In this document: in pieces, positions 27,854 through 55,598 of the stretch
Layout: each line of letters starts with the position of its first letter
How positions within the stretch are numbered: the stretch's first letter is position 1
NCBI GenBank assembly: GCA_020725025.1
Contig: DYFV01000011.1
Span: 1 to 64,000, forward strand
Reading direction: 5' to 3'
Length of the DNA: 64,000 nucleotides
Origin: Azoarcus sp.
Lineage (GTDB): Bacteria; Pseudomonadota; Gammaproteobacteria; Burkholderiales; Rhodocyclaceae
The notes under the pieces: model-generated
The model's database searches: none
The model's input: only the letters and a program-made list of their open reading frames with translations
Told to the model about the DNA's origin: nothing
Position numbers and translations under genes: made by a program

Positions 27854-29176
27854 ATGAAGAGTGCGTTGGATTTCCTGATCGCCGCCAAGCGCTGCGAGAT
27901 TCAGGGTCTGGAGCAGCTCGCGGTGACGGGCGAGCTGGTGGGGGGCATCAGCCAATTCGTGCATGCCCTGCAGAAGGAACGGGGCTCCTCGAACGTCTAT
28001 CTCGCTTCGCGCGGGGCACGCTTCGGTCCGCAGCGCCAGCAGCGCGTGGCCGACAGCGAGGCGATCGAGGCGGCGGTGCGCGCCGCCTTCGAGCGCCTCG
28101 ACGACTCGGGGCGCCTGTCGGACGGCGCGCGGCTCTTCAGCCGCATCGCCTACGTGCTGCACGCCCTCGACACCCTGCCCGGGCTGCGCGGGCGCATCGA
28201 GGGCCTCTCGATCGCGCCCGAGGAGGCGTTCGGTGCCTACACCGAGCTCATAGGCGGGCTGCTTTCGGTGGTCTTCGAGGCCGCCGACACGGCGGCCGAC
28301 CCGGTGATCTCGCGCGCCCTCGTGGCGATGTTCAACTTCATCCAGGGCAAGGAGCTCGCCGGCCAGGAGCGTGCGGTGGCCGCGGCCGGCTTCGCCGGCG
28401 GGCGCTTCGACGCCGCCCGCCAGCAACGCCTGCTGCATCTGGTCGAGGCGCAGGAGCGCTGCTTCCAGATCTTCACCGAGTTCGCCGACGAGCCGGCGCT
28501 GGCGGCCTGGCGCGCCGCCTCCGGGGCGCCCGAGGTGGCCGAGGTCGAGCGCTTCCGCCGCATCGCATGCACCGCCGTGGCCGGCGCGGCGCTCAAGGCC
28601 GATACCAGCGACCAGTGGTTCGAATGCGCGACCCGACGCATCGACGCCATGAAGGGCATCGAGGACATGCTCGCCTCGGCCCTCCTCGAGCTGTGCCGCG
28701 GCAAGGTCGACGAGGCCCGTGCCGATCTTCAGGACCAGCACAAGTTCTACGACTCGCTCGAGCACATGGCGCCGCGCGCCGCGACGCCGGTGGCGGTCTT
28801 CCTCGGCGAGGACGGCAAGGCGCTGGCGTCCGACGGGGCCGGGCGTGCCGCGCCCGTGCTCGACTCGGACGGGCTCAGCCCGCGCCTGAGCCGCTCCATC
28901 CTGGATCTGGTGCACGCCCAGGCGAGACGCCTGCAGACCATGAGCGACGAGCTCAATACCGCCCGCGCGGCGCTGCACGAGCGCAAGGTGATCGAGCGAG
29001 CCAAGGGGCTGCTGATGGCGCACCGCGGCCTCACCGAGGACCAGGCCTATCGGCTGCTGCGCCAGACCGCGATGGACCAGAAGAAGCGGCTGGTGGACGT
29101 GGCCGAGGCGACCCTCGCCCTCGCCGATTTCCTGCCCGCGGGCCGTCCCGGGGGCGAGGAGCGCGGTCCGCGCTGA
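27854..29176 (+). CDS. NIT-domain/ANTAR-domain transcription antiterminator (NasR-like nitrate regulator)
   Basis: N-terminal NIT-like GISQFVHALQKERGSSNVYLASRG; C-terminal ANTAR ARAALHERKVIERAKGLLMAHRGLTEDQAYRLLRQTAMDQKKRLVDVAEATLAL; next to cobA-nasA. Confidence 0.92.
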   Translation: MKSALDFLIAAKRCEIQGLEQLAVTGELVGGISQFVHALQKERGSSNVYLASRGARFGPQRQQRVADSEAIEAAVRAAFERLDDSGRLSDGARLFSRIAYVLHALDTLPGLRGRIEGLSIAPEEAFGAYTELIGGLLSVVFEAADTAADPVISRALVAMFNFIQGKELAGQERAVAAAGFAGGRFDAARQQRLLHLVEAQERCFQIFTEFADEPALAAWRAASGAPEVAEVERFRRIACTAVAGAALKADTSDQWFECATRRIDAMKGIEDMLASALLELCRGKVDEARADLQDQHKFYDSLEHMAPRAATPVAVFLGEDGKALASDGAGRAAPVLDSDGLSPRLSRSILDLVHAQARRLQTMSDELNTARAALHERKVIERAKGLLMAHRGLTEDQAYRLLRQTAMDQKKRLVDVAEATLALADFLPAGRPGGEERGPR

Positions 29177-29214
29177 GGCGCCTTCCCTGGCTGCGGCGCT
29201 CACGGCAGGCTTCC

Positions 29215-29302
29215 TAGCCCGGATGGCGTGCAACGGAATCCGGGATCGGAGTCGGCCGACGCGCCGCCTGTCCCGGATTCCGCCGGCGCTCCATCCGGGC
29301 TA
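29215..29302. repeat. Dispersed palindromic (REP-like) element, copy A
   Basis: TAGCCCGGATGGCGTGCAACGGAATCCGGGA...TCCCGGATTCCGCCGGCGCTCCATCCGGGCTA inverted arms. Confidence 0.85.
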
Positions 29303-29348
29303 CCCACCGCTGGGGTCTCGGCTTCGACCCCGTTTCTCCCCGATCCCT

Positions 29349-29394
29349 GCACCCCCGGAGTGCGGCCCTCTGCGTTGCTGCACTGCAAGAGTGC
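29349..29394 (+). promoter_or_regulatory. Two candidate NtrC dyads upstream of the cobA-nasA promoter
   Basis: GCACC-N5-AGTGC (29349-29363) and GCACT-N5-AGTGC (29380-29394), centres 31 bp apart, about -144 and -113 from the predicted start. Confidence 0.6.
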
Positions 29395-29473
29395 GCGCCC
29401 CATTCCCCTCCGCTTGATCCACCTTCGAGCCGGATCCCCGTAAGCACGCGGTTTTTCAGCCGCTGCCGCCTAT

Positions 29474-29489
29474 TGGCACGCCTCCTGCT
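29474..29489 (+). promoter_or_regulatory. sigma54-type -24/-12 promoter for cobA-nasA
   Basis: TGGCAC-GCCTC-CTGCT; GG-N10-GC spacing. Confidence 0.75.
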
Positions 29490-29507: not shown

Positions 29508-29610
29508 GCACCGGGACGTTCCGGTGCATGCGCGAGAAGGTGGACAACGGCGTCCATTTCTCACCCTGTGAAGACTGCAGGGAGAGGAATGCGGCGCCGT
29601 TTGCCGTTTT
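29508..29610 (+). promoter_or_regulatory. Candidate ANTAR-responsive leader of cobA-nasA (two hexaloop hairpins plus competing long hairpin)
   Basis: GCACCGG-GACGTT-CCGGTGC (29508-29527); TGGAC-AACGGC-GTCCA (29541-29556); AACGGCG (29546-29552) complementary to CGCCGTT (29595-29601) plus inner TTTCTCaCCCTG/CAGGGaGAGGAA stem. Confidence 0.65.
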
Positions 29611-29676: not shown

Positions 29677-30438
29677 ATGTCCAAGGTTTATCTGATCGGT
29701 GCCGGACCCGGCGCGGCCGACCTTCTCACCCTGCGCGCGGCGCGCATCCTGGCCGAGGAGGCGGAGGTCGTGCTGGCCGACGACCTGGTCTCCGCGGCGG
29801 TCCTCGCCCACGTGCGTCCCGGGGCGCGCATCCTGCGGGTGGGCAAGCGCGGCGGGCGTCCGTCCACGCCCCAGTCCTTCATCTGCCGGCTGATGGTGCG
29901 CTACGCCCGGCACGGCAAGGTGGTGGTGCGGCTCAAGGGGGGCGATTCATTCGTCTTCGGGCGCGGCGGCGAGGAAGTGGCGGCGCTCGCGGCGGCCGGC
30001 GTCGACACCGAGGTGGTGCCGGGTCTCACTGCCGGCATCGCGGTGCCGGCCGCCGTGGGCATCCCGGTCACCCATCGCGGCCATTGCCACGGGGTGACCC
30101 TGGTTACCGGCCATGGCAGCGAACACGGCGGCGAGCCGGACTGGGCGGCGCTCGCGCGCACCGGCACCACGCTGGTGATCTACATGGGGCTGGGGCGGCT
30201 GCTCAACATCGCTGCCCGGCTCATCGCGGCCGGCATGGATCCGACGACGCCCGCGGCAGCGATCGCGGCCGGCACCACCGCGGGCCAGCGCCACGTGGTG
30301 GCCTGCCTCGCCGAACTTCCCGCGCGGGTGGCGGCGTCGGATCTCGCCGCGCCCGCGCTCATCGTGGTGGGCGAGGTGGCCGCTTTCGCCCGCCCGGAAA
30401 GCCTGCAGTGGGCCGAGGCCGAGATGCGGGCGGCCTGA
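29677..30438 (+). CDS. cobA: uroporphyrinogen-III C-methyltransferase (SUMT)
   Basis: [63 protein letters not shown]. Confidence 0.96.
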
Positions 30439-30631: not shown

Positions 30632-33382
30632 ATGCATTCACCCGAGCTGAGGACAGCGGAGACCCGCTCCGTGTGCTGCTACTGCGGTACCGGTTGCGGC
30701 GTGATCATCGAGCAGCGTGACGGCCGCATCACCGGCGTGCGGGGCGACCCGGCCCATCCGGCCAACTACGGCCGGTTGTGCAGCAAGGGCTCGAACCTGC
30801 ATCTCACCACCGCCGCCGGCGGCCGGGCGCTGCACCCCATGCTGCGCGAGCACCGCGGCGAGGCGCGCCGGCGGGTGGGCTGGGATCGGGCGCTCGATAC
30901 CGCCGCGGATCGCTTCGCTCAGATCATCGAGCGCCACGGGCCGGACGCGGTCGCGTTCTACGTCTCGGGGCAGCTGCTCACCGAGGACTACTACGTCTTC
31001 AACAAGCTCGCACGCACCCTGGTCGGCACCAACAACATCGACTCCAACTCGCGCCTGTGCATGTCGAGCGCGGTGGCCGGCTACAAGTCCACCCTGGGCG
31101 CCGACAGCGTGCCCAACTGCTACGAGGACATCGCCGCCGCGGACCACCTGCTGATCGCCGGCTCCAACACCGCCTGGGCGCACCCCATCGTGTTCCGCCG
31201 CATCGAGGACGCCAAGGCCGCCAATCCCGAGCTCTTCATCACGGTGGTCGATCCGCGCCGCACCGAGACGGCCGAGTTCGCCGACCTGCACCTGGCGATC
31301 GCGCCGGGCAGCGACGTGCTGCTCTACAACGCCATGCTGCACGTGCTGGTGTGGGAAGACCTCATCGACCGCGACTTCATCGAGCGCCACACCACCGGCT
31401 TCGCCGAGCTGCGCACGGCGGTGCGCGACTGCTCGCCGGGGGCGGTGGCAGCCGCCTGCGGCGTGGCGGCGGAGGACATCGTCGCCGCGGCGCGTCGCTT
31501 CGGCAACGCCCGCGCGGCGCTCTCCATGTGGTGCCAGGGCCTGAACCAGTCCCACCACGGCACCGCCAACAACGCGGCGCTCATCCACCTGCATCTGGCT
31601 ACCGGCCAGATCGGACGCCCGGGCGCCGGCCCGTTCTCGCTCACCGGCCAGCCCAACGCCATGGGCGGGCGCGAGACGGGCACCATGGCCAACATCCTGC
31701 CCGGCCACCGCGATCCGGCGAACGCCGCCGACCGGGACGAGCTCGCCCGCCTGTGGGGCGTGCCGGCGCTGCCCGAGCGCCCCGGGCTGACCGCGATCCC
31801 GCTCTTCGAGGCGATCGCCGAGGGGCGGGTGAAGGCCCTGTGGATCGCCTGTACCAACCCCGCCCAGTCGCTCCCGGACCAGGCCCAGGTGCGCGCCGCG
31901 CTGGAAGCCTGCGAGTTCGTGGTGCTGCAGGAAGCCTTCGGGGACACGGACACCGCCGAGTTCGCCGACCTGCTCCTGCCCGCCGCCGGCTGGGGCGAGA
32001 AGTCGGGGACCGTCACCAACTCGGAGCGGCGCGTCTCCCGGGTGCGGCCCGCGGTGGCTGCGCCGGGCGAGGCGCGCTCCGACTGGGCGATCACCGCCGA
32101 CTTCGCGCGGCGCCTGGCGCGCCGCCTGGGCCGCGAGGCCGACGTGGCGCGCTTCGCGTTCGCCGACGAGGCCGCGGTGTTCGCCGAGCACGTGGCCCTC
32201 ACCGCCGGACGCGATTGCGACATGAGCGGGCTTTCGTACACGCTGCTGGAGGCGGCGGGGCCGCAGCAGTGGCCTTATCCGGCGGGCGCGACGGCAGGGC
32301 GGCCGCGCCTTTATGAAGACGGGCGCTTCCCCACCGCGGACGGGCGGGCGCGCTTCAATCCGAACGGGGCGCCGGTGCGCCACGCGCTCACCCCGGAGCC
32401 CACCGACGCGCGCCACCCCTTCATCCTCAACACGGGCCGGCTGCGCGACCACTGGCACGGCATGAGCCGCACCGGCAGGGTCGCCTCCCTGTGGGGGCAT
32501 GCGCCGCGGGCGGAGATCGGGCTCAATCCCGCCGATCTCGCCCGCCGCGGCTGGCGCGAGGGGCAACTCGTGCGCGTCGCCGGCCGGCGCGGCTCGGTGG
32601 TGTTGCCGGTGGCCGCCGATCCGGCGACGGCCCCGGGCCAGGCCTGGCTGCCGATGCACTGGGGCAGCGCCCAGCTCGCCCAGCCCGGCGCCAACGCCAT
32701 GACCTCGCCGGTCACCGACCCCGTTTCGCGCCAGCCCGCGCTCAAGCAGGCCGCCGTGTCGGTGGAGACCTTTCCGGTGCACTGGGAAGGCGCCTGGGCG
32801 GCGGCCGCCGGCGATGCGCCGGGCGCCACCGCGCTGATGGCCGCGCTGCGGCCCTGGCTCGCCCGCTTCGGGCATGCCTCGCTCACGCTGACCGGCCGCG
32901 AGCGGCCGGTGGTGGTGTTGCGCATCGCCCACGACGCGCCGGTGGCGATCGAGGCGCTGGCCCGGCTCGACGCCCTCTTCGGCTGCGACGGTGAGGACAG
33001 CCTCGCCTTCCGCGACCGCGCCCGCGGCATCGACAAGCGGGCCCGCATCCATGGCGGGCGGCTGCAGGCGATCCGCCTCATCAACGAGACCGCCGGCTTC
33101 GACTGGCTGGTGGAGGCGATCGTCGCCGACCAGGCCGCCGATCCGCTGCGGCCATGGCTGTTCGCGCCCATCGCCCGTCCCCCGGCCGCCGTGCCCGCGG
33201 CCGGCCGCACGGTGTGCAACTGCTTCGGTGTCGGCGAGACCGAGATCCGCGACGCGATCGCCGGGGGCGCCGACCTCGAGTCCCTGCAGGCAAGCCTGAA
33301 GTGCGGCACCTCCTGCGGCTCCTGCCTGCCGGAGCTGCGCCGGCTGGTGGCGGCGGGGCCGGCGGTGCGCGCTGCGGCCTAG
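30632..33382 (+). CDS. nasA: assimilatory nitrate reductase large subunit with C-terminal BFD-like [2Fe-2S] domain
   Basis: 4Fe-4S CCYCGTGCGVIIEQ, molybdopterin oxidoreductase; C-terminal CNCFGVGETEIRDAIAGGADLESLQASLKCGTSCGSCLPELRRLV; RBS ggagaaggg. Confidence 0.95.
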   Translation: MHSPELRTAETRSVCCYCGTGCGVIIEQRDGRITGVRGDPAHPANYGRLCSKGSNLHLTTAAGGRALHPMLREHRGEARRRVGWDRALDTAADRFAQIIERHGPDAVAFYVSGQLLTEDYYVFNKLARTLVGTNNIDSNSRLCMSSAVAGYKSTLGADSVPNCYEDIAAADHLLIAGSNTAWAHPIVFRRIEDAKAANPELFITVVDPRRTETAEFADLHLAIAPGSDVLLYNAMLHVLVWEDLIDRDFIERHTTGFAELRTAVRDCSPGAVAAACGVAAEDIVAAARRFGNARAALSMWCQGLNQSHHGTANNAALIHLHLATGQIGRPGAGPFSLTGQPNAMGGRETGTMANILPGHRDPANAADRDELARLWGVPALPERPGLTAIPLFEAIAEGRVKALWIACTNPAQSLPDQAQVRAALEACEFVVLQEAFGDTDTAEFADLLLPAAGWGEKSGTVTNSERRVSRVRPAVAAPGEARSDWAITADFARRLARRLGREADVARFAFADEAAVFAEHVALTAGRDCDMSGLSYTLLEAAGPQQWPYPAGATAGRPRLYEDGRFPTADGRARFNPNGAPVRHALTPEPTDARHPFILNTGRLRDHWHGMSRTGRVASLWGHAPRAEIGLNPADLARRGWREGQLVRVAGRRGSVVLPVAADPATAPGQAWLPMHWGSAQLAQPGANAMTSPVTDPVSRQPALKQAAVSVETFPVHWEGAWAAAAGDAPGATALMAALRPWLARFGHASLTLTGRERPVVVLRIAHDAPVAIEALARLDALFGCDGEDSLAFRDRARGIDKRARIHGGRLQAIRLINETAGFDWLVEAIVADQAADPLRPWLFAPIARPPAAVPAAGRTVCNCFGVGETEIRDAIAGGADLESLQASLKCGTSCGSCLPELRRLVAAGPAVRAAA

Positions 33383-33540: not shown

Positions 33541-33573
33541 GTAGCCCGGATGGTGCCCCAGCGGAATCCGGGA
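33541..33573 (+). repeat. REP-like element, single arm (copy C)
   Basis: GTAGCCCGGATGGTGCCCCAGCGGAATCCGGGA. Confidence 0.75.
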
Positions 33574-33629
33574 GCGGTGGCGAGCGCCCGCCGGCCTCTC
33601 CCTTTCCCTCGCAATCTTCATCCTGCGCC

Positions 33630-33675
33630 GCACCATTTACGTGCGGCAGTCGTGCGCCATGGCCCCTGCTGGTGC
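33630..33675 (+). promoter_or_regulatory. Candidate NtrC site(s) upstream of nrtA
   Basis: GCACC-ATTTA-CGTGC (33630-33644, about -140) and weaker GGCCC-N5-GGTGC (33661-33675, about -109). Confidence 0.6.
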
Positions 33676-33750: not shown

Positions 33751-33767
33751 TGGCACGACCGTTGCTT
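33751..33767 (+). promoter_or_regulatory. sigma54 -24/-12 promoter for nrtA
   Basis: TGGCAC-GACCG-TTGCTT, matches consensus TGGCAC-N5-TTGCW. Confidence 0.88.
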
Positions 33768-33799: not shown

Positions 33800-33903
33800 G
33801 CTCAACGATGAGCACAGCCGGTGTGGCGGCTCCCGCAGGAAGGGGGCGCAGGTGGGAACGAACGATGGGGTCCAAAGGCGGACCGCGGCGGACAAAGGCG
33901 TCC
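33800..33903 (+). promoter_or_regulatory. Candidate ANTAR-responsive leader of nrtA (three A-N-N-G hexaloop hairpins)
   Basis: GCTC-AACGAT-GAGC (33800-33813); GGTCC-AAAGGC-GGACC (33869-33884); GGAC-AAAGGC-GTCC (33890-33903), the last overlapping the terminator 5' arm. Confidence 0.85.
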
Positions 33904-33946
33904 ACGAATCAGCAGCCCGAAGGCTGGTTCGTGGGCGCTTTTTTTT
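33898..33946 (+). terminator. Intrinsic leader terminator upstream of nrtA
   Basis: GCGTCCACGAATCAGC / GCTGGTTCGTGGGCGC (16 bp, two G-U) then TTTTTTTT. Confidence 0.93.
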
Positions 33947-33989: not shown

Positions 33990-35396
33990 ATGAAACGGGA
34001 TTCAATGAGGAATACCTGGACGCGCGTCGCCGGCAAGCACGTGCGGGTCACCCTGGCATCGGTCGCCGTGGCGGCCGGCGCGATCGCGATGCCCGCATTC
34101 GCCAAGGGCGAGATCGAGAAGCCCGACCTCAAGTTCGGCTTCATCAAGCTCACCGACATGGTGCCCCTGGCGGTGGCCTACGAGAAGGGCTACTTCGAGG
34201 ACGAGGGGCTGTACGTCACCCTCGAGGCGCAGGCGAACTGGAAGGTGCTGCTCGACCGGGTCATATCCGGCGAGCTCGACGGCGCGCACATGCTCGCCGG
34301 CCAGCCGATCGGCGCGACCATCGGCTACGGTACCAAGGCGGACGTCATCACCGCCTTCAGCATGGACCTCAACGGCAACGGCATCACCGTCTCCAACGCG
34401 GTGATGGAGCGCCTCAAGACCAAGCTCCCCAAGGACGACGACGGCAAGCCGCTGCACCCGGTCAAGGCCGAATATCTCAAGGCGGTGGTCGACGAGTACA
34501 AGAAGGAAGGCAAGCCCTTCAAGATGGGCATGGTCTTCCCGGTGTCCACCCACAACTACGAGCTGCGCTACTGGCTCGCCTCGGGCGGGCTGAACCCGGG
34601 CTACTACGCCCCGGCCAAGGGCGACACGGCCGGCACCATCGGCGCCGACGTGCTGCTCTCCGTGACGCCGCCGCCGCAGATGCCCGCCACCATGGAAGCC
34701 GGCACCATCGACGGCTACTGCGTGGGCGAGCCGTGGAACCAGCAGGCGGTGTTCAAGGGCATCGGCGCGCCGGTCATCACCGACTACGAGATCCAGAAGA
34801 ACAACCCGGAGAAGGTGTTCGGCGTGACCAAGGCCTGGCACGACAAGCACCCGAACACCCACAAGGCGGTGGTCAAGGCGCTGATCCGCGCGGGCTACTG
34901 GCTGGACGCGGAGAACAACAAGAACCGCAAGGAGGCGGCCAAGATGATCTCGGCCTCCAACTACGTCGGCGCCGACTACAAGGTCATCGCCAACAGCATG
35001 ACCGGGACCTTCGAGTACGAGAAGGGCGACGTGCGCCAGGTGCCCGACTTCAACGTCTTCTTCCGCTACAACGCGACGTATCCCTACTACTCGGACGCCA
35101 TCTGGTATCTCACCCAGATGCGCCGCTGGGGCCAGATCGCCGAGTACAAGCCCGACGCCTGGTACATGGAGATCGCGAAGAAGGTCTATCGCCCGGACGT
35201 CTACGCCGCCGCGGCGAAGGAGCTGATCGCCGAGGGCAAGATGAAGGCTTCCGACTTCCCCGACTTCGACAAGGAGACCGGCTTCAAGCCGCCGCAGAAG
35301 GACTTCATCGACGGCGTCGTCTATGACGGCAGCAAGCCCAACGCCTACATCGACAGCTTCAAGATCGGCTTGAAGGGCAAGGACACGGTGAAGTAA
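33990..35396 (+). CDS. nrtA: nitrate ABC transporter substrate-binding protein (NrtA family)
   Basis: [74 protein letters not shown]. Confidence 0.94.
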
Positions 35397-35489
35397 CGCG
35401 GCCGGCGGGCCGGCGCGCGTCGCGCGTCGCACGGCCGCAGTGGCCGGGCCCGCCTGCGTCCCAAGGAATCGACAGACAGGACCATTGCC

Positions 35490-36506
35490 ATGCTCAACAC
35501 GACGGCAAACTTCTTCAACAAGACCGGCTTCACCTGGTTCGTCCCCTTCCTGCGGCTCGCCGCCGGCGAGGACCCGCGCCAGCAACTGCGCGAGATCCTG
35601 GTGCAGATCGGGGTGCCCATCCTCGCCATGGCGCTCTTCCTGCTCCTGTGGAACGCGCTCGCCTCGGGCGTGCAGACGAGCCTGGGCGCCATCCCCGGCC
35701 CGGCGCAGGTGCTCGAAGAGGCGCAGGGCCTCGTCGAGGAGCACCACGCCGAGCGGGAGAAGGAGGCCGCCTTCTACGCCCGCCAGGAGGCGCGCAACGC
35801 CGAGCGCCTGGCCGAGGATCCCGCCGCGCAGGTGACGATCCGCCCCTGGACCGGCAAGCCCACCTACTTCGACCAGATCGTGACCAGCCTGTACACGGTG
35901 TTCACCGGCTTCGCCATCGGCACCCTGGTGGCGGTGCCGCTGGGCATCCTGTGCGGGCTGTCGCGCACCTTCCAGATCGCGTTGAATCCGTTGATCCAGG
36001 TCTTCCGCCCGGTCTCGCCGCTCGCCTGGCTGCCGATCGTGACCCTGGTGGTGAGCGCGGTCTACGTGAGCGCCGACCCGATGTTCGAGAAGTCCTTCAT
36101 CACCTCGGCGATCACCGTGACCCTGTGCTCCCTGTGGCCCACGCTGATCAACACCGCCCTGGGCGTCGCCTCCATCGACAAGGACCTCATCAACGTCTCC
36201 AAGGTGCTGCGCCTGTCCTGGTACACCAAGGTCACCAAGATCGTGCTGCCCTCGTCCTTGAAACTCATCTTCACCGGCCTGCGCCTGTCCCTCGGGGTGG
36301 GCTGGATGGTGCTGATCGCGGCCGAGATGCTGGCGCAGAACCCGGGCCTCGGGAAGTTCGTGTGGGACGAGTTCCAGAACGGCAGCTCCCACTCGCTGGG
36401 CCGGATCATGGTGGCGGTGTTCACCATCGGCTTCGTCGGCTTCCTCCTCGACCGCATCATGAACACGCTGCAGCAGCTGGTGAGCTTCGGCGACACCGCC
36501 CACTGA
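35490..36506 (+). CDS. nrtB: nitrate ABC transporter permease
   Basis: BPD-type permease (GFAIGTLVAVPLGILCGLSRTFQIALNPLIQVFRPVSPLAWLPI). Confidence 0.94.
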   Translation: MLNTTANFFNKTGFTWFVPFLRLAAGEDPRQQLREILVQIGVPILAMALFLLLWNALASGVQTSLGAIPGPAQVLEEAQGLVEEHHAEREKEAAFYARQEARNAERLAEDPAAQVTIRPWTGKPTYFDQIVTSLYTVFTGFAIGTLVAVPLGILCGLSRTFQIALNPLIQVFRPVSPLAWLPIVTLVVSAVYVSADPMFEKSFITSAITVTLCSLWPTLINTALGVASIDKDLINVSKVLRLSWYTKVTKIVLPSSLKLIFTGLRLSLGVGWMVLIAAEMLAQNPGLGKFVWDEFQNGSSHSLGRIMVAVFTIGFVGFLLDRIMNTLQQLVSFGDTAH

Positions 36507-36521
36507 CCCGGGAGAGCGATC

Positions 36522-38285
36522 ATGGCAAGCACGCAACTGAAATTCGTCGAGCCGGCGGAGTACCTGGTGGCGCCGGCCGCCGCCGCGTCCGTACCCGCGC
36601 CCGCGGCGGCACAGGGCGAGGCGGTCCTGTCCCTGCGCGGCGTCGCCAAGTCCTACGGCAGCGGCAGCCGCGTCACCCAGGTGCTGCGGGACATCGACCT
36701 GGACATCCGCGAGGGCGAGTTCGTCGCCATCGTGGGCTTCTCGGGCAGCGGCAAGACCACCCTGATCTCGCTCATGGCCGGTCTCATCGCGCCGGATGCG
36801 GGCGAGGTGCTGCTCAAGGGCGAGCCGGTGGTCGGGCCGGGGCCCGACCGCGGCGTGGTCTTCCAGAGCTACTCGCTGATGCCGTGGATGACGGTGCGCC
36901 AGAACGTGGCGCTGGCGGTGGACCAGATCTTCAAGGATGCCCCCAAGGCGGAGCGCGAGGCGCGGGTGGCGAAGTACGTGGAGATGGTGAACCTCACCCC
37001 CGCCATGGAGAAGCGCCCGGCCGAGCTCTCCGGCGGCATGCGCCAGCGGGTGTCGGTGGCCCGCGCGCTCGCCGGCAGCCCGGACATCCTGCTGCTCGAC
37101 GAGCCGCTGTCGGCGCTGGATGCGCTCACCCGCAGCAACCTGCAGGACGAGATCCTGCGCATCTGGGAGCAGGAGAAGAAGACGGTCGTCCTCATCACCA
37201 ACGATGTGGACGAGGGCATCATCATGGCCGACCGCATCGTCCCGCTGAACCCCGGCCCCGGCGCCACCTTCGGCCCGCAGTTCGAGGTCTCCCTGCCGCG
37301 TCCGCGCGACCGCACGGCGATGAACCACTCGCCCGAGTTCAAGCGCATCCGCAAGGAGGTCACCCAGTACCTGATGCAGGTGGGCTCGGCCCAGGCGGCC
37401 GAAGCGGGCGGCAAGGTCATCAGCCTGCCCACCGTGCTGCCCAACACCAGTCGCGAGCACCAGGCGAAGCTGGCCGGGGCGGCGCCCGAGAAGGCGGTGC
37501 CCAACGCCGAGCGCTATGTGGAGTTTTCCAAGGTCTCCAAGATCTACCCGACCAAGAAGGGCCCGGTCACGGTGGTGGAGGAGTTCGACCTCAAGATCCG
37601 CAAGGGCGAGTTCATCTCGGTGATCGGCCACTCCGGCTGCGGCAAGTCCACCGTGCTTTCGATGGTGGCGGGCCTGAACGAGATCAGCGAGGGCGTGGTG
37701 GTGCTCGACGGGCGCGAGGTGGCCAACGCCGGTCCCGATCGCGGCATCGTGTTCCAGGCGCCCAGCCTGGTGCCCTGGCTGACCGCCGAGGAGAACGTCG
37801 CGCTGGGCGTGGAGCAGGTCTATCCCCACGCCACCCGGGCCGAGCGGGCCGACATCGTGGCCCACTACCTCGCCCGGGTCGGGCTCGCCGACGCCGCCCG
37901 CAAGAAGGCCGCCGAGCTTTCCAACGGAATGAAGCAGCGGGTGGGCATCGCCCGCGCCTTCGCCTTGTCGCCCAAGCTGCTGCTGCTGGACGAGCCCTTC
38001 GGGATGCTCGACTCGCTCACCCGCTGGGATCTGCAGGAGGTGCTGATGGAGGTCTGGAGCCGCACCCAGCTCACCGCCATGATGGTCACCCACGACGTGG
38101 ACGAGGCGATCCTGCTCGCCGATCGGGTGGTGATGATGACCAACGGGCCGCGCGCCAAGGTGGGCAAGATCCTCGAGATCGACCTGCCGCGCCCGCGCAC
38201 CCGCAAGATGCTGCTCGAGCACCCGGACTACTACCGGCTGCGCGAGGAGCTCCTGAGCTTCCTGGAAGAGTGCGGCCACCACTGA
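36522..38285 (+). CDS. nitrate ABC transporter ATPase, two fused ATP-binding domains
   Basis: Walker A twice ([20 protein letters not shown]), signature motifs LSGGMRQR and LSNGMKQR. Confidence 0.92.
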
Positions 38286-38348: not shown

Positions 38349-39548
38349 ATGCATGCCTTGACAGAGAGAGTCGGGGAGCCGGCCGCGCCGGCGGCGCCCC
38401 GGTGTAGAAGATCCGTGCTGCACGCGATCGCCCCGGCGTGGCTGTGCGCCGGGGCCGGTTTCGCGGCAGCGGCGCTCGTCGACGGCTGGGCGCTGCGCGG
38501 CGCGGCGCTCACAGTGGCAGTGCTCGCGGCGGGCGTGGCGCTGGCGGGGGGGCGCGCGCTGGCACGGCGGCTCGCCGAGCTGGAGGGCTTCGCCACCCAG
38601 CTCGCGGCGGGCCGCCTCGACCTGCGGCTGCCCACGGTCGCCGATGACGCCTTCACCCCCGTCGTCGAGCGCCTGAACGGCGGCACCCGTGCGCTCGCGG
38701 CGGTGCTCATCGAGCTCGGCCGCGCGAGCGACGAGCTGAAGAGCGTCTCCCACGAGGCCTCGGCGAACGCGGTGGCGGGCGAGCAGGGCGTCCATACCCA
38801 GCGCGACGTCACCGTCTCCTCGGCCGCCACCCTGGAAGAGCTCATCACCAGCCTCGCCAGCACCCGCGACGCCGCCGCGGAGGCGGCCGGCGCGGCGGGC
38901 GAGGCGGTTGACGAAGCGCGCCAGGGCAGCGGCCGGGTGAGCGAGGTGGCGGACGCGATGCAGGCGCTGGCCCGCGAGGTGAGCGGCGCCGCCGACACCG
39001 CCGGCGCCCTCGCCGAGCGCTCGCGGCGCATCGACGGCATCGTCGGCACCATCGCCGAGGTGGCCGCGCGCACCAACCTCCTCGCCCTCAACGCCGCCAT
39101 CGAGGCGGCCCGCGCGGGCGAGGCGGGGCGCGGCTTCGCGGTGGTGGCCGACGAGGTCCGCCAGCTCTCCGAGCGCACCACCGGCGCGACGCGCGACATC
39201 GCGGCTCTCGTCGCCGGCGTGCAGGGGGACGTGGCGGCCCTCACCGCGGCAGTGGGCGCGGCCGACGGCAAGGCGCGCGAGAGTGCGGCGCGCGCCGGCG
39301 AGGCCGCGGCGGCGCTGGCTTCGATCGAGCAGGCCGCGCAACGCACCCTGCAGCACATGCAGGAGATCGCCGCCGCCAGCGCCGAGCAGAGCGTCGCCGG
39401 CGAGCGCATCGCGGTGGACATCGAGCGGGTGGCGCGGCTCGCCGACGACAATGCGCGGCGCGTGGCGGAGAACAGCGAGATGGCCCGCTACCTGGAACAG
39501 CTCGTGGCCCGCCTCGAAGAGCGCGTGCGCCACTTCCGCTGCGAGTGA
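38349..39548 (+). CDS. methyl-accepting chemotaxis protein lacking an obvious extracytoplasmic ligand-binding domain
   Basis: Two closely spaced TMs, HAMP-like region, signalling hairpin [44 protein letters not shown]. Confidence 0.93.
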
Positions 39549-39555
39549 GGCAGGC

Positions 39556-40464
39556 ATGACGGCCATGATGACCCTGTCGGCCGCCCTGGGGGGCGGCGTC
39601 CTGCTGGCGACCGCGGGATGGGGCCTGCGCCGGTTCCGGCGCCACGCCCGGCCGCGCCGGGCCGGCCCGGCGCTGGTGCGTGCCTCGCAACTGGTGGAGT
39701 TGATCGCCCAGGTCCAGCAGCACCGCGGCATGTGCGGCGCATGGCTGGCGGGCGACGCGAGCTTCGCCGCGCGCCTGCCGGAAAAGCAGGCGGCGGTGAG
39801 CCGGCTGTTCTCTCTGATCCTCGAGGGCATGCCGGACGAGGAGGCCGAGGACCATCCCTGCTTCGTCAGCCACGACGTGCGCCTCTTGCGCCACCGCTGG
39901 GACGAACTGGTGTCCCGGCTGGCGGACTGCACGCCCGAGCAGAGCTTCCAGACCCATTGCCGCATCGTGGGAAGACTCCTGGACTGGCTCGCCGCCACCG
40001 GCGAGGCGCGTATCGAGCAGCCTTTCGCGGGCGTGGTGCCGGCCGCCGCGGCGCGCAACTTCGCCCATCGCCTGCCGGTGCTCGCCGAATGCCTGGGCCA
40101 GGCGCGGGCGCTGGGCAGTGCGGTGGCGGTCAAGCGCTACTGCCCGCCGGTGGCCCGGGTGCGGCTCGCCTTCCTCGCCTCGCGCTCGGAGACGCTGCTC
40201 GGCCAGGCGGCCGATACTGCAGCGGAAGGCGGTGGCGCCGTGGCGGCCGAGGCGCGGCGCGCGGTGCGCGACTACCTCGAGGCGATCCGCGGGCGGTTGC
40301 TGGCGACCCGCGACGTCGACCTGCCGGCGGGGGAGTACTTCGCGCTGGCCACTCGGGCGATGGAGGCGGTGTTCGCCTGGCTGGAGGCCGAGAAGCATGC
40401 CGTGGCGACGGCGCTGCGCATGGCGGCGAGGCAGGGCGACACGACCGGGGAGGGGCGGCCATGA
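39556..40464 (+). CDS. membrane-anchored NIT-like (nitrate/nitrite sensing) domain protein
   Basis: Single N-terminal TM, then [36 protein letters not shown] and C-terminal [25 protein letters not shown], resembling NIT family patterns. Confidence 0.65.
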
Positions 40465-42617
40465 ATGGTCGCGAGGGATTGCCCTTTGTCCGACGCGTCC
40501 CGGCCAGGTCCTTCCGCCAGGGTCCGCGCATCGACAGCCGGCGGGTGCTCGCCGTGCTCATCGACAACCTCGACGGCGCGGTCTTCCGCTGCGCGATCGA
40601 CGCCGACTGGACCATGCTGTTCGTGAGCGAGGGCTGCCGGCGGCTCACCGGCTACGGGCCCGAGGACTTCGTCGGCAGCCGCAACGCGTCGCTGCAGCGG
40701 CTTACCCTGCCGGCCGATCGGCAGCGGGTGCGCGACGGGATCATGGCGGCGCTGGCGGCCGGTACCCGCTATCAGGTGGAATACCGCATCGTGTGCCGCG
40801 ACGGCATCGAGAAGTGGGTGCTCGAGCGTGGCACGGCGGTGCGCGACGAGTTCGGCGAGCAGGTGCTCGAAGGCTTCATCGAGGACATCACCGACCGGGT
40901 CGCCGCGCTGCGCCGGCTGGCCGAGGCCGAGGCGCGCTACCGGGGGCTCTTCGAGAACTCCGCCACGGGCATCTTCCAGAGCACGCCGGAGGGGCATTAC
41001 CTGGCCGTCAACGCGGCGCTCGCCGGCATGTACGGCTACCCGTCCCCCGAGGCGCTGATCGCCGACCTGCGCGACATCGGCAACCGGCTCTACGTGCAGC
41101 CCGGCCGGCGCCAGGAGTTCGAGCGCCTGATCCGCGAGCACGAGCAGGTGAGCCATTTCGAGTCGGAGGTCTATCGCCGCGACGGCTCCACCCTTTGGAT
41201 CGCCGAGACCGCCCACGCGGTGCGGGCGCCCGACGGCGCGCTGCTCTACTACCAGGGCACGGTCGAGGACATCAGCGAGCGGCGCCGCTATCGGGAGCGG
41301 CTCGAGTACCAGGCGAGTCACGACCTGCTCACCGGCCTGCCCAACCGCAACGCCCTGGGCGAGCGGCTTGCGCGGGCCCTCGCCCACGCCCGGCGCGAGG
41401 GCGGAGAGGTCGCGCTCGCCTTCGTCGATCTCGACAACTTCAAGGTGATCAACGACAGCCTGGGGCACGCCGCCGGAGATCGTCTCCTGATGGCGATCGC
41501 CGGGCGGCTCAACGCGGCGCTGCGCGCCCACGATACCGTGGCCCGCTACGGCGGCGACGAGTTCGTGCTGATCCTGCACCATGTCGGCAGCGTCGCCGCG
41601 CTCGAGGCCATCCTGGAGCGGGTGGCGCAGGAAGTGGCCCGCCCGGTCCACGTCGACGGCCACGAGCTGCTGGTGACATGCAGCATCGGAGTGGCGCTCG
41701 CGCCGGAGGACGGCGAGGATCTGGAGACCCTGCTGCGCCATGCCGACACCGCGATGTACTCGGCCAAGTCGTCCGGCCGCGCCGCCTCGGCCTTCTTCAA
41801 CACCACGCTCAACGCCGGCGCGATGCGCCGCCTGCAACTGGAGTCGGCCCTGCGCCACGCCATCGAGCGCGGCGAGATCGAGGTCCACTTCCAGCCCAAG
41901 GTCGATCGTCGCGGCGAGGTGCTGTCCTTCGAGGCGCTCGCGCGCTGGACGAGCAGCGAGTTCGGCCCGGTCTCGCCGGCGGTGTTCATCCCCATCGCCG
42001 AGGACACCGGCCTCATCGAGGCCATCACCGAGCATGTGCTGGGCGTCGCCTGCCGCGAGGCGGCCGGGTGGGGCCGGGCCCGGCCGACGAGGCTCGCGGT
42101 TGCGGTGAATCTTTCGCCGCGACTGTTCCGCTCCGGACGGCTGGCGAGCCGCATCGCAGCGGTCCTGGCGGAGGCCGGGCTGCCCGCGGCGTGCCTGGAG
42201 GTGGAGCTCACCGAGGGGCTGCTCATGGACACGGGCATCGACGCGGTCGGCCAGCTCCAGGCCCTGAAAGGGCTGGGCCTGCGCCTGGCGGTGGACGACT
42301 TCGGGACGGGCTATTCCTCGCTTGCCTACCTGTCGCGCTTCCCGCTCGACATCCTGAAGATCGACCAGGCCTTCGTCGCGAGCATCGTGCCGGGTTCCAA
42401 CAGCGCCATCCTGGTGCGGGCGATCGCCTCCCTGGGGCGCGAGCTGGGGCTCACGGTGGTGGCCGAGGGGGTGGAGACCCCGCAGCAATGGGATTTCCTG
42501 CGCGAGGCGGGCTGCGACGAATTCCAGGGCTACCACTTCGCCCGCCCCATGCCCGCCGCCGCTGCGCGGGAGTGGCTCGAGCGGGCGGACTACGAGGGCG
42601 TTCAGGCGGTCACGTAG
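40461..42617 (+). CDS. PAS-PAS-GGDEF-EAL protein (c-di-GMP signalling)
   Basis: [10 protein letters not shown] (GGDEF), [41 protein letters not shown] (EAL); overlaps the preceding stop. Confidence 0.94.
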
Positions 42618-42704
42618 CCCGTACGGAGTGCAACGGAATCCGGGACCTTCGGGCGAGACGCCACGACCCGTTCCCGGATTCCGCCTTCGGCTGCATCGGG
42701 CTAC
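42614..42704. repeat. Dispersed palindromic (REP-like) element, copy B
   Basis: GTAGCCCGTACGGAGTGCAACGGAATCCGGGA...TCCCGGATTCCGCCTTCGGCTGCATCGGGCTAC. Confidence 0.85.
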
Positions 42705-43345
42705 GAATGTCGCAGACGCCGATCCGTGGCGCTGCCGAAGAACCGCGCCACGCAACGGTCGAGGCCGCTGCGCGGCGTCTTCTGGATGGCGAGCAGCAGC
42801 TCGTGCTCGATGCTCGCCAGACCGAAGCGGTGCGCGAGCTCGTCGCCGATGCGCCCGAAGAGGTTGGCGGTCGCCTCGGCATCGGCCAGCGCCCGGTGGT
42901 AGCGACCGGTCAGGGGCAGGCCCAGGGCCGAGACCAGGGTGCCGAGCTTGTGGTTGGGCGCGTCGGGAAAGACGCGGCGCGAGAGCAGCAGGGAGCACAC
43001 GAACTCCGCGGGCCGCCGCCGGCCCAGGCGCCCGAGTTCCGCGTCCCAGAAGCGGCGGTCGAAGGCGGCGTTGTGGGCGACCAGAGGGTGCGGGCCCACG
43101 AAATCAGCCGCCTCGGCCATCACCTGGTCAACGGGCGGCGCGGCACGCACCATGGCGTTGGTGATGCCGGTGAGCTGCTCGATCTCCCAGGGCACGCGAA
43201 CGCCCGCGTTCATCAGGCTCTGGTAGCGGTCGACCACCTGACCCTCGCGCACCAGCACCACCGCGATCTCGGTGGGCCGCGCCCCGAGCTCGGGCGCCAT
43301 GCCGGAGGTTTCGAAGTCGATGACGGCGTGGGTGCGGGGGATCAT
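42701..43345 (-). CDS. 3'-5' exonuclease (DnaQ/DEDDh family)
   Basis: HAVIDFETSGM; PLVAHNAAFDRRF; YHRALADAEATANLF. Confidence 0.88.
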   Translation of the reverse strand: MIPRTHAVIDFETSGMAPELGARPTEIAVVLVREGQVVDRYQSLMNAGVRVPWEIEQLTGITNAMVRAAPPVDQVMAEAADFVGPHPLVAHNAAFDRRFWDAELGRLGRRRPAEFVCSLLLSRRVFPDAPNHKLGTLVSALGLPLTGRYHRALADAEATANLFGRIGDELAHRFGLASIEHELLLAIQKTPRSGLDRCVARFFGSATDRRLRHS

Positions 43346-51269: not shown

Positions 51270-52484
51270 TCAGATCTTCGCGCTGGTGAGGTGAGGCGCG
51301 CCCCAGGTGGTGCGCCAGCGCTTCTTTACGCCGGTGAGCCCCGCGAGCGCAAGCACCGCCAGGCAGGCGAAGATCAGGAAGCCCGCCTGGTAGCTGCCGG
51401 TGAGCTCGCGGGAGTAGCCGAGGCTGGAGGCGAGGTAGAAGCCGCCCACCCCGCCGGCCATGCCCACCAGGCCGGTCATCACGCCGATCTCGCGCCGGAA
51501 GCGCTGCGGCACGAGCTGGAACACCGCGCCGTTGCCCATGCCCAGCGCCAGCATGGCCCCGACGAACACGACCAGCGCCATCCACGCCGACGGTAGCCCG
51601 ACGCTCACCAGGGCGAGGAAGACCGCGGCGAGCAGGTACATCACCGTGAGCGACTTCACCCCGCCCACCCGGTCGGCCACGTTGCCGCCCACCGGGCGCA
51701 CCAGGGAGCCGGCGAACACGCAGGCCGCGGTGAAGTAGCCGGCGGTCTTGGGGTCCAGCCCGTACTGGGTGTTGAAGTAGATCACCAGGGAGGAGGCGAG
51801 GCCCACGAAGCCGCCGAAGGTGACCGAGTAGAAGAACATGAACCACCACGCGTCCCGGTCCTTCAGCACCTTCATGTACTCCGCGAAGGACTTGGGCGGC
51901 GGCGCGTCCGGGGCATCCTTGGCCACCACCACGAAGAACACCAGCACCAGCACGAGCGGGACGAGGGCGATGCCGAACACGCTGGTCCAACCGTAGGCGG
52001 CGGCGAGCCCCGGCGCCAGCAGCGCGGCGAAGGCGGTGCCGGAGTTGCCGGCACCGGCGATGCCCATCGCCGTGCCCTGGTGCTCGGGCGGATACCAGCG
52101 CGAGGCGAGCGGCAGCGCCGCGGCGAAGGAGGCCCCGGCCACCCCGAGGAAGAGCCCCAGCACCAGCGTCTGCTCGTAGCTGTGGATGCCGAACAGCCAC
52201 GCCCAGGCGAGGGCGGCGATGACCACCACCTGACCGATGATGGCCGCGCGCTTGGGCGAGAGGCGGTCTACCAGCACGCCCATGACGATGCGCAGCAGCG
52301 CCCCGGCGAGCACCGGGGTGGCGACCATGAGGCCCTTCTGCGCGTGGGAAAGCCCCAGGTCGTTGGCGATGCCCACGCCCAGCGGGCCCAGGATCACCCA
52401 CACCATGAAGGCGAGGTCGAAGTAAAGGAAGGCGGCGATCAGCGTGGGCGTGTGCCCGGCCTTCAGGAAGGATTTGGAGAGCAT
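51270..52484 (-). CDS. MFS nitrate/nitrite transporter (NarK/NasA type)
   Basis: 12-TM MFS; GVLVDRLSPKRAAIIGQ; GVGIANDLGLSHAQKGLMVATPVLAGALLRI; third gene of the nirBD operon. Confidence 0.93.
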   Translation of the reverse strand: MLSKSFLKAGHTPTLIAAFLYFDLAFMVWVILGPLGVGIANDLGLSHAQKGLMVATPVLAGALLRIVMGVLVDRLSPKRAAIIGQVVVIAALAWAWLFGIHSYEQTLVLGLFLGVAGASFAAALPLASRWYPPEHQGTAMGIAGAGNSGTAFAALLAPGLAAAYGWTSVFGIALVPLVLVLVFFVVVAKDAPDAPPPKSFAEYMKVLKDRDAWWFMFFYSVTFGGFVGLASSLVIYFNTQYGLDPKTAGYFTAACVFAGSLVRPVGGNVADRVGGVKSLTVMYLLAAVFLALVSVGLPSAWMALVVFVGAMLALGMGNGAVFQLVPQRFRREIGVMTGLVGMAGGVGGFYLASSLGYSRELTGSYQAGFLIFACLAVLALAGLTGVKKRWRTTWGAPHLTSAKI

Positions 52485-52582: not shown

Positions 52583-52915
52583 TCAGAGCTGGAGGAAGAT
52601 GTCGCCGTCTTCGACCCGCACCTGGAAGGGCCTGGTGCAGCCCACGTCGGGGGCTGCCGCCTCGCCGTTCTCGAGCTGGATCTTCCAGCTGTGCAGCGGG
52701 CAGGTCACGGTGCGCCCGTGGACGATGCCCGGCGAGAGCGGACCGCCCTTGTGGGGGCACTTGTCGTGCACCGCGAAGATCTCGTCCTCGGCGTTGCGGA
52801 AGATCGCGATGTCGCCGTGGCGCGCGCTCTTCACCACCCGCGAGCCCAGCACCGGGATCTCTTCCATTCGGCACACACGCTTCCAGTCGGCGGCCACTTC
52901 AATCGTCGTCGTCAT
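52583..52915 (-). CDS. nirD: nitrite reductase small subunit (Rieske-type)
   Basis: HDKCPHKGGPLSPGIVHGRTVTCPLHSWKIQLENG. Confidence 0.94.
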   Translation of the reverse strand: MTTTIEVAADWKRVCRMEEIPVLGSRVVKSARHGDIAIFRNAEDEIFAVHDKCPHKGGPLSPGIVHGRTVTCPLHSWKIQLENGEAAAPDVGCTRPFQVRVEDGDIFLQL

Positions 52916-52940: not shown

Positions 52941-55388
52941 TCAGGCTTCGATCGCGAGATCTTCGAACTGGCGCCGCAGCAGCGGCTTCTCGGCGTGCTC
53001 CTGCCACGGATCCTTGTAGTCCTTGAGCGCGTAGAGGAGCCGCTCGTAGAGCGCGCGGCGGTTGTCCGCGTCCTCCACCACGAGCTTCTTCACGTGGTCC
53101 AGGCCCACCCGCTGCACGTAGTGGCAGGTGCGCTCCAGGTAGAAGCCTTCCTCCCGGTAGAGCTGCAGGAAGGCGCCGGAGACCTCCTTCACCTCCTCGT
53201 CGGTCTTCACCTTGCACAGGAACTCGGCGACTTCGGTCTTGATGCCGCCGTTGCCCGCGACGTAGATCTCGTAGCCGGAATCGACCCCGATCACGCCGAT
53301 GTCCTTGATGCCGGCCTCGGCGCAGTTCCTCGGGCAGCCGGACACGGCGAGCTTCACCTTGTGGGGCGACCACATGCCGAAGAGCATCTTCTCCAGCTTC
53401 ACCCCCATCTCCATCGAGCGCTGGGTGCCGAAGCGGCAGTGCTCGGCGCCGACGCAGGTCTTCACCGTGCGGATCGACTTGCCGTAGGCGTGGCCCGAGA
53501 CCATGCCGGCCTTGCCCAGGTCCGCCCACATCAGGGGCAGGTCCTCCTTCTTCACCCCCAAGAGGTCGATGCGCTGGCCGCCGGTGACCTTCACCGTGGG
53601 CACCTTGTACTTCTCGGCGACATCCGCGATGGCCCGCAGCTCGTCGGGCGTGGTGAGCCCGCCCCACATTCGCGGCACCACCGAGTAGGTGCCGTCCTTC
53701 TGGATGTTGGCGTGGGCGCGCTCGTTCACGAAGCGGCTCTGCGGGTCGTCCTGGGCCTCGTGGGGCCAGGTCGAGATGACGTAGTAGTTGAGCGCCGGGC
53801 GGCAGGTGGCGCAGCCGTTGGGCGTCTTCCAGTCGAGGAAGCGCTGGGCGTCGGCCACCGACAGGAGCTTGTTCTCGCGGATCGCGCGGCGCACCTCCCC
53901 GTGGGAGAGGTCGGTGCAGCCGCACACCGCCTTGCTGGTCGAGTCGGCCGGCTGGTAGGCGCCGCCCACGGTGGAGGCGAGGATCTGCTCCACCAGGCCG
54001 GTACACGAGCCGCAGGAGGAGGCCGCCTTGGTGTGCTTCTTCACCTCGTCCAGGGAGAACAGGCCGTGCTCCTTGATGGCCTTGACGATGGTGCCCTTGC
54101 ACACGCCGTTGCAGCCGCACACCTCGGCGGTGTCGGGCATGGCGGCGGCGGAGTTCGCGCCCTTGTGGCCGGCGTCGCCCAGGTGGGCGTTGCCGAAGAG
54201 CAGGTGATCGCGGATCTCGTGGACGTCCTGGCGGTCCTTGAGGAGCTGGAAGTACCACGCCCCGTCCTTGGTGTCGCCGTAGAGCACGGAGCCCACCACC
54301 TTGTCGTCCTTGAGCACCACGCGCTTGTAGACGCCCGCGCCCGGGTCGTGCAGCACGATGTCCTCGGTACCTTCGCCGCCCATGAAGTCGCCCGCGGAAA
54401 AGACGTCGATGCCGGTGACCTTGAGCTTGGTGGAGGTGACCGAGCCCTGGTAGCGGCCGATGCCGTACATGGCGAGGTGGTTGGCGCACACCTTGGCCTG
54501 CTCGAAGAGGGGGGCCACGAGGCCGTAGGCGGTGCCGCGGTGGTTGGCGCACTCGCCGACGGCGTAGATGCGCGGGTCGTAGGTCTGCATGGTGTCGCTC
54601 ACCACGATGCCGCGGTCGCAGTGGATGCCGGCGGCCTGGGCGAGCTCGGTGTTGGGACGGATGCCCGCGGCCATCACCACCAGGTCGGCGGGGAGAGTTT
54701 CGCCGTCCTTGAAGCGCACGGCACAGACGCGGCCCGATTCGCCGGCGACCAGCTCGGAGGTCTGCTTGTTGAGCGCGAACTTCATGCCCTTGGCTTCCAG
54801 GGCGGACTGCAGCATCTTGCCCGCGGTGCGGTCGAGCTGGCGCTCCATGATCCAGTCGGCGATGTGCACCACGGTGACGTCCATGCCGCGCAGGGCCAGG
54901 CCGTTGGCCGCCTCCAGGCCCAGCAGGCCCGCGCCGATCACGACCGCGTGGCGGTGGCGTGCGGCGGCGTCGATCATCTCGTCGGTGTCCTTGATGTCCC
55001 GGTAGGAGATCACGCCCGGCAGGTCCTTGCCCGGGACGGGGAGGATGAAGGGCGTGGAGCCGGTGGCGATGAGCAGCCGGTCGTACTCCACCTCGGTGCC
55101 GTCGGCCGCGATCACCTTGCGGCGCTTGCGGTCGATCTTCTCGACCTTGTTGTTCAGGTGCAGCGCGATGCCGTTGTCGGCATACCACTGCTTGTCGTTC
55201 AGGATGATGTCCTGGATCGTCATCTCCCCGGCGAGCACCGGCGACAGCAGGATGCGGTTGTAGTTCGGGTGCGGCTCCGCCCCGAAGACGGTGATGTCGT
55301 ACAGGTCGGGGGACAGCTTCAGCAGCTCTTCGAGCGTGCGGACGCCGGCCATGCCGTTGCCGACCATGACGAGTTTCGACTTGCGCAT
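52941..55388 (-). CDS. nirB: assimilatory nitrite reductase large subunit
   Basis: MRKSKLVMVGNGMAGVRTLEELL; BFD CGCNGVCKGTIVKAI and CGCTDLSHGEVRRAI; siroheme motifs CVGAEHCRFG, SGCPRNCAEAGIKDIGV. Confidence 0.96.
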   Translation of the reverse strand: MRKSKLVMVGNGMAGVRTLEELLKLSPDLYDITVFGAEPHPNYNRILLSPVLAGEMTIQDIILNDKQWYADNGIALHLNNKVEKIDRKRRKVIAADGTEVEYDRLLIATGSTPFILPVPGKDLPGVISYRDIKDTDEMIDAAARHRHAVVIGAGLLGLEAANGLALRGMDVTVVHIADWIMERQLDRTAGKMLQSALEAKGMKFALNKQTSELVAGESGRVCAVRFKDGETLPADLVVMAAGIRPNTELAQAAGIHCDRGIVVSDTMQTYDPRIYAVGECANHRGTAYGLVAPLFEQAKVCANHLAMYGIGRYQGSVTSTKLKVTGIDVFSAGDFMGGEGTEDIVLHDPGAGVYKRVVLKDDKVVGSVLYGDTKDGAWYFQLLKDRQDVHEIRDHLLFGNAHLGDAGHKGANSAAAMPDTAEVCGCNGVCKGTIVKAIKEHGLFSLDEVKKHTKAASSCGSCTGLVEQILASTVGGAYQPADSTSKAVCGCTDLSHGEVRRAIRENKLLSVADAQRFLDWKTPNGCATCRPALNYYVISTWPHEAQDDPQSRFVNERAHANIQKDGTYSVVPRMWGGLTTPDELRAIADVAEKYKVPTVKVTGGQRIDLLGVKKEDLPLMWADLGKAGMVSGHAYGKSIRTVKTCVGAEHCRFGTQRSMEMGVKLEKMLFGMWSPHKVKLAVSGCPRNCAEAGIKDIGVIGVDSGYEIYVAGNGGIKTEVAEFLCKVKTDEEVKEVSGAFLQLYREEGFYLERTCHYVQRVGLDHVKKLVVEDADNRRALYERLLYALKDYKDPWQEHAEKPLLRRQFEDLAIEA

Positions 55389-55426
55389 GATGTTCCCTCG
55401 CAACAATTGCCCCGGCGGGCGCCGGA

Positions 55427-55510
55427 GACGATTTCCTTGTCGCTTCAGGGATCGTCGTTGATCCTGGAACCCTCGCGGGTCCCGGTGGGGTGGCCGCCGT
55501 TGGCCGCCCC
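55427..55510 (-). promoter_or_regulatory. Candidate ANTAR-responsive leader of nirB
   Basis: mRNA sense: GGGGCGGCC-AACGGC-GGCCACCCC (55510-55487), GGATC-AACGAC-GATCC (55464-55449), competing hairpin GACGAT...ATCGTC (55456-55427). Confidence 0.7.
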
Positions 55511-55582
55511 GGGGGCTGATGCGAATCCACTTACGCTTGCCGATCGCGCATCCCTTGCGCGACCGGCTCCTGGGCAGCGGTC

Positions 55583-55598
55583 AGCAAGACCCATGCCA
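55583..55598 (-). promoter_or_regulatory. sigma54-type -24/-12 promoter for nirB
   Basis: Minus strand TGGCAT-GGGTC-TTGCT; GG-N10-GC spacing. Confidence 0.78.

Follow-up and report, generated by a model that had tools for sequence, protein, structure and literature searches.

In Klebsiella oxytoca, the NIT-ANTAR protein NasR acts as a nitrate antiterminator on the nasF leader, a precedent that the initial annotation had named and that the literature bears out; an A at position 1 and a G at position 4 of each hexaloop (A1/G4) and a C:G closing pair are equally established for this target (PMC7496416, PMC3369931). Dual control by Ntr and NasR is also known in Klebsiella (PMC5424462). The NasS-NasT systems of Paracoccus (PMC5424462) and Bradyrhizobium (PMC6759348) employ an ANTAR antiterminator that acts on nitrate/nitrite leader RNAs and has several targets. 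As for translation, Ramesh et al. suggested that some ANTAR matches may act at its initiation, translational control by a mycobacterial ANTAR RNA takes the form of repression (PMC8164766), and ANTAR-driven translational activation has been engineered in the NmPAL riboptoregulator (PMC11381354).

We analysed a 64-kb stretch of DNA (the window) from an Azoarcus-related bacterium, together with the rest of its genome (G000; other G numbers denote genomes, and L numbers loci, that were compared). The system in the window shares with Klebsiella nasF a NIT-ANTAR protein, dual hexaloops with A1/G4, the C:G closing pair, an overlap between the second hairpin (P2) and a terminator, and probably combined Ntr and nitrate control. 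Klebsiella uses this arrangement at one operon, whereas the window genome has four leaders on separate operons. Unlike in Klebsiella, one of these leaders lacks a terminator and instead shows complementarity to a Shine-Dalgarno (SD) sequence, and the regulator gene is linked to rnr-rlmB. An ANTAR antiterminator with several nitrate/nitrite leader targets is also a feature of NasS-NasT; however, the sensor there is a separate NasS protein, whereas the window protein carries a fused NIT domain.

We propose that these genes form a NasR-type nitrate-assimilation regulon with two tiers of control, including an SD-based output at nirB, an identity for the Rfam narK RNA, and service of the same leaders by a receiver-ANTAR protein in congeners; on the sequence comparisons below, we put the probability of this overall reading at roughly 0.8. 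In the first tier, nitrogen limitation would act through NtrC on the sigma54 promoters of the nitrate operons. In the second, nitrate or nitrite would cause NasR to bind the pair of hexaloop hairpins (P1 and P2) in each leader. NasR-bound P2 would exclude an intrinsic terminator at nrtABCD, at a leader on contig 77 and probably at cobA-nasA, and at nirBD-MFS it would more likely hold the 3' strand of P2 off the nirB SD, thereby activating translation. In congeners, the ANTAR gene at this chromosomal position would instead supply a receiver-type protein that serves the same leaders. Within this model, we infer the protein-RNA binding, the nitrate response, termination and the translational effect. 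The two-tier principle itself is already known from Klebsiella nasF; the novelty lies in a design that spans several operons, in a probable second mode of output and in the assignment of the narK RNA. The initial annotation had one regulator gating three leaders by antitermination. Comparative evidence sustains the NtrC/sigma54-controlled, ANTAR-type leaders on several operons and the linked NIT-ANTAR gene; uniform antitermination was not supported, since the nirB leader lacks a P2-overlapping terminator. The fourth leader, the regulator exchange at the locus and the match to the Rfam narK RNA are additions to that three-operon reading.

Table 1 Features of the predicted regulon (window positions unless another locus is given).
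Feature	Position	Strand	Basis or remark
nasR: predicted NIT-ANTAR one-component nitrate/nitrite-responsive RNA-binding regulator	27854..29176	+	Pfam NIT + ANTAR; directly 3' of rnr-rlmB
Two NtrC-like dyads GCAC-N7-GTGC, 5' of cobA sigma54 element	29349-29363, 29380-29394		Exact; at -125 and -94 relative to the -24 element
Sigma54 -24/-12 element TGGCACGCCTCCTGC of cobA-nasA	29474..29488	+	Pattern match
cobA leader P1, loop GACGTT (non-canonical, G1)	29508..29527	+	Sequence; R1 19.2 bits
cobA leader P2 GGAC-AACGGC-GTCC	29542..29555	+	Identical to P2 of relatives
cobA terminator-like stem, followed by weak U tract (TTTGCCGTTTTC)	29546..29601	+	Local fold -40.3 kcal/mol
cobA (uroporphyrinogen-III C-methyltransferase, siroheme)	29677..30438	+	NCBIfam
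nasA-type assimilatory nitrate reductase, C-terminal BFD-like [2Fe-2S] domain	30632..33382	+	Pfam/NCBIfam
NtrC-like dyad GCACCATTTACGTGC, 5' of nrt sigma54 element	33630..33644		Exact GCAC-N7-GTGC at -121
Sigma54 element TGGCACGACCGTTGC of nrtABCD	33751..33765	+	Pattern match
nrt leader extra hexaloop hairpin GCTC-AACGAT-GAGC	33800..33813	+	Sequence; 5' of P1-P2
nrt leader P1 GGTCC-AAAGGC-GGACC	33869..33884	+	R1 36.0 bits, E 5e-8
nrt leader P2 GGAC-AAAGGC-GTCC	33890..33903	+	R1 match
nrt intrinsic terminator, ends in 8 T	33895..33946	+	Local fold -34.1 kcal/mol; also in full leader fold
nrtA, nrtB, nrtCD (nitrate ABC transporter)	33990..38285	+	Pfam/NCBIfam
MCP-like protein, stand-alone NIT protein (39556-40464), PAS-GGDEF-EAL protein	38349..42617	+	Pfam
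NarK-type MFS transporter	51270..52484	-	67% identical to MFS gene behind above-threshold Rfam narK RNA
nirD	52583..52915	-	TIGR02378
nirB	52941..55388	-	TIGR02374
nirB SD CGAGGGA, complementary to P2 3' side (TCCCT, 55451-55447)	55394..55400	-	Local fold; candidate translational switch
nirB leader P2 GGATC-AACGAC-GATCC	55449..55464	-	R1 match; homologues retain stem, loops vary
nirB leader P1 GGCC-AACGGC-GGCC	55492..55505	-	R1 21.7 bits; homologue GGCC-AAGGAC-GGCC
Sigma54 element TGGCATGGGTCTTGC of nirBD-MFS	55584..55598	-	Pattern match
Fourth leader	L162:8666-8717 (G000 contig 77)		Sigma54 element, full terminator, two NtrC-like dyads

The predicted regulator contains a NIT domain (E 4e-60) and an ANTAR domain (E 4e-21) in Pfam, and its closest solved structure is Klebsiella NasR (4akk, E 2.8e-60), with an alignment that spans both domains. 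The gene was therefore correctly called NIT-ANTAR at the outset; its product is of the NasR type and is the sole ANTAR protein in the genome. A conserved GQER motif, invariant in three NIT-ANTAR proteins, may correspond to E175/R176 in the helix-5 nitrate pocket of NasR.

The pattern TGGCAY-N5-YTGC has exactly three matches in the window against 0.71 expected (at 29474, 33751 and 55598(-)), one at each of the cobA-nasA, nrtABCD and nirBD-MFS promoters; the GG-N10-GC elements first noticed at the head of the three nitrate operons are confirmed and are the window's only matches to this pattern. The genome encodes sigma54 proteins (rpoN) and a single NtrC that passes the family cut-off. Exact NtrC-like dyads accompany the cobA, nrt and contig-77 leaders, and no exact GCAC-N7-GTGC dyad occurs 5' of the nirB sigma54 element. 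Of 90 leaders of this type, 61 have such a dyad in the 200 bp upstream, compared with 0.48 expected.

Seven hexaloops in the three window leaders, six of them fitting A-N-N-G-N-N, had been listed from the sequence, and all seven are present as described. The exception, GACGTT in the cobA leader, is indeed non-canonical, with a G at position 1 and loop ends that could pair as G.U; the P1 loop of the homologous leader in another genome (G089) is ATCGAC and keeps A1/G4. Canonical C-ANNGNN-G hairpins with a stem of at least 4 bp number three in the nrt leader (0.07 expected; reached by 0 of 1000 dinucleotide shuffles), two in the nirB leader (0.07 expected; 1/1000) and one in the cobA leader (0.03 expected; 33/1000). 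Tandem dual hexaloop hairpins are complete in the nrt and nirB leaders, and the cobA pair has the non-canonical P1.

The initial annotation had proposed a scan with an ANTAR-RNA covariance model. Our model (R1), trained on 38 leaders of other genomes with the window sequences excluded, recovers all three window leaders (E 5e-8 for nrt, 3e-4 for nirB and 1e-3 for cobA) and a fourth outside the window. This fourth leader, on contig 77, is the best R1 match in the whole genome (38.2 bits) and precedes a gene for a NirB-like FAD flavoprotein that is 36% identical to NirB; because contamination of the assembly is 5%, it could be foreign. Further low-score matches in the genome (L120-L123) come without a leader-like sigma54 site and were discarded as chance.

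In relatives, the comparison covered 84 loci that surround NIT-ANTAR genes, most of them from a named set of 80. Here, 69 leaders were detected 5' of an nrtA-type gene, the majority immediately 3' of nasR, and five 5' of nirB-type genes. Covariation, whose absence from the hexaloop stems would have spoken against an ANTAR target, was found in P1: two-sided change affects five of six pairs across 38 sequences, a score reached by 0 of 500 shuffles. P2 is invariant across this alignment and so yields no covariation signal. Since the P1 set was chosen partly by stem length, two selections that remove this bias were added. With P2 and the sigma54 element as the only anchors, 94 of 102 loops of the best upstream hairpin had A1 and 98 had G4; of 88 leaders selected by loop motif only, between 73 and 80 paired at each flanking position through pair 6. 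Below P2, the complement of its loop, CGCC(G/T)T, occurs in 85 of 90 leaders (8.8 when shuffled) and a T-run in 84, which indicates that the P2 loop and 3' strand form the 5' arm of a terminator. In a table of 61 related genomes compiled by hand, leaders (E <=1e-3) were found in 20 of 38 genomes with an ANTAR protein and in none of 23 without (p 8e-6).

Folding of the three window leaders recovered the expected terminator in part: at nrt and, with a weak U tract, at cobA, P2 and an intrinsic terminator share sequence and exclude each other, as they also do in the contig-77 leader, and no such terminator was found at nirB. The nrt terminator overlaps the P2 loop and the P2 3' strand, and the same two elements make up the 5' arm of the cobA terminator-like stem (leader fold z -4.66). 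Antitermination would thus fit the nrt and contig-77 leaders, and probably cobA. Three-hairpin leaders like that of nrt recur in relatives, e.g. L052, L072 and L086. The MCP, NIT and GGDEF-EAL genes that follow nrtCD may be co-transcribed with nrt, judging from their close spacing on the same strand; the mcp-NIT gene pair also adjoins nas genes elsewhere (L217, L223), which suggests a nitrate-linked behavioural output. The intergenic stretches 29216-29305, 33541-33600 and 42614-42705 are alike, built on cccggat / cggaatccggga, and have the appearance of a palindromic repeat that is dispersed.

The nirB leader differs in its likely output. The local fold of the G000 leader contains no U-tract terminator formed from P2, and a GNRA-loop hairpin lies between P1 and P2. 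The SD of nirB is some 50 nt 3' of P2, outside the dual stem-loop, which sets the leader apart from the actinobacterial translational ANTAR RNA, whose RBS/start codon is inside it. The proposed switch shares the level of translation initiation with the actinobacterial RNAs and the NmPAL riboptoregulator; the latter is a synthetic activator, whereas activation is proposed here in a natural leader. Most of 21 nirB-type leaders fold locally so that the 3' strand of P2 is paired with the SD around an inner hairpin, and the per-lineage shuffle values of the class combine to p 0.0015. Across 14 lineages, the leaders' own P2-3'/SD complementarity beats that with swapped SD regions, all 20000 and all 5000 permutations being worse (p<2e-4); of eleven control windows 5' of P2 in this class, one gave p 0.013 and the others were null. 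An ANTAR protein, of NIT-ANTAR size in some and of receiver size in others, is present in each of the 20 nirB-class genomes that were searched. In the G000 leader alone, the P2-3'/SD pairing is not significant (17/100 shuffles), and forcing P1-P2 in its full-length fold leaves SD accessibility unchanged, so that the translational reading draws on the comparative test. RNAalifold returned no consensus structure for the nirB class, as the gapped inner hairpins could not be aligned by MAFFT. On balance, we lean towards a nirB leader that gates the SD, with translational activation as its output.

That every leader, nirB included, works by transcription antitermination is the less probable though still credible view, in which a GC-rich hairpin of the nirB leader (CTCCGGC-GCCC-GCCGGGG, then CAATTGTTG) would be a poor intrinsic or Rho-assisted terminator. 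A GC-rich hairpin stands at that place in many nirB leaders, with better T tracts in G159, G101 and G145, and ordinary terminators occur in nirB leaders of other genomes. However, the candidate in G000 has a poor U tract and shares no sequence with P2, so that it could still form with NasR bound, and coevolution links the 3' side of P2 to the SD. It is improbable that the nirB leader is instead a decayed, non-functional copy, leaving nirB under NtrC/sigma54 alone. The missing U-tract terminator and exact NtrC dyad, together with an R1 score below that of the nrt leader, would agree with decay, but the homologues conserve both stems and their 42-43 nt spacing, and they keep A1/G4 even as the other loop letters differ (AACGGC/AACGAC in G000, AAGGAC/AGCGCC in homologues); a few of their P2 loops start with G or T. 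Chance also rarely produces two canonical hairpins, as the single shuffle in 1000 noted above attests.

A reader other than NasR, be it a different factor or a protein-free riboswitch with NasR working elsewhere, appears very improbable. The function of the leaders is itself deduced, and the likeness of P1-P2 is to ANTAR targets in general, which leaves room for this idea; against it stand the single ANTAR protein of the genome, encoded next to the leaders, and the confinement of leaders to ANTAR-bearing genomes.

The reader of this RNA seems exchangeable. In ten congeners, an ANTAR gene lies immediately 3' of rlmB (and rnr, where the stretch extends that far), as it does in NIT-ANTAR genomes such as those of Azoarcus and Pseudothauera (rnr again where covered); further downstream come the nrt leader and nrtA, in some congeners with a few kb of other genes between. 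The product of the congener gene is a receiver-ANTAR protein, judging from the domains of one and the 93-97% identity of the others to it, and no nasS was found 5' of it in the one congener examined. The window NIT-ANTAR protein and the congener receiver-ANTAR protein are about 40% identical over their shared part; hence the whole gene, rather than the sensor domain alone, seems to have been replaced. Judged from these genomes, congeners thus appear to hold a receiver-ANTAR protein at the nasR position while the RNA leaders are the same. Whether the full combination holds, with one regulator and one RNA element serving two outputs (antitermination and nirB translation) and the sensor swapped in place under an unchanged RNA code, we consider evenly balanced.

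At the gathering threshold, Rfam matched nothing but tRNAs in the window, and 20 loci gave no match at all. A link to the narK RNA (RF03032) surfaced only at an E-value threshold: the nrt leader scores 17.7 bits and the contig-77 leader 32.1 bits, both below the gathering score of 43.2 bits. In the RF03032 consensus, a sigma54 -24/-12 element is followed by P1 CCAACGGCGG and after that by CGACAAAGACGUCG (P2), and the aligned leader has the same order of GGCAC..TTGCT, CCAACGGCGG hairpin and GACAAAG.CGUC; the P2 stretch is unpaired in the Rfam structure. Both above-threshold members that were found in the class carry GG-N10-GC, P1, P2 and a terminator, and one of them has a NasT-like gene on one side and a NarK-type MFS gene on the other. 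L317, L318 and L319, which are narK RNA members or near-threshold matches, combine a sigma54 promoter, ANTAR P1-P2 and a terminator. We conclude that the narK RNA probably joins a sigma54 promoter to an ANTAR target.

Collectively, these comparisons would extend the Klebsiella nasF paradigm from one operon to a testable regulon design that is widespread in Betaproteobacteria. The narK RNA, named only from its gene neighbour, gains a likely molecular partner, and part of its Rfam model would represent a DNA promoter. If confirmed, the nirB class would be a case of natural ANTAR-driven translational activation, for which the only other report that we found concerns an engineered circuit. The apparent exchange of the sensor protein in place suggests that a regulatory RNA code can outlast its reader.
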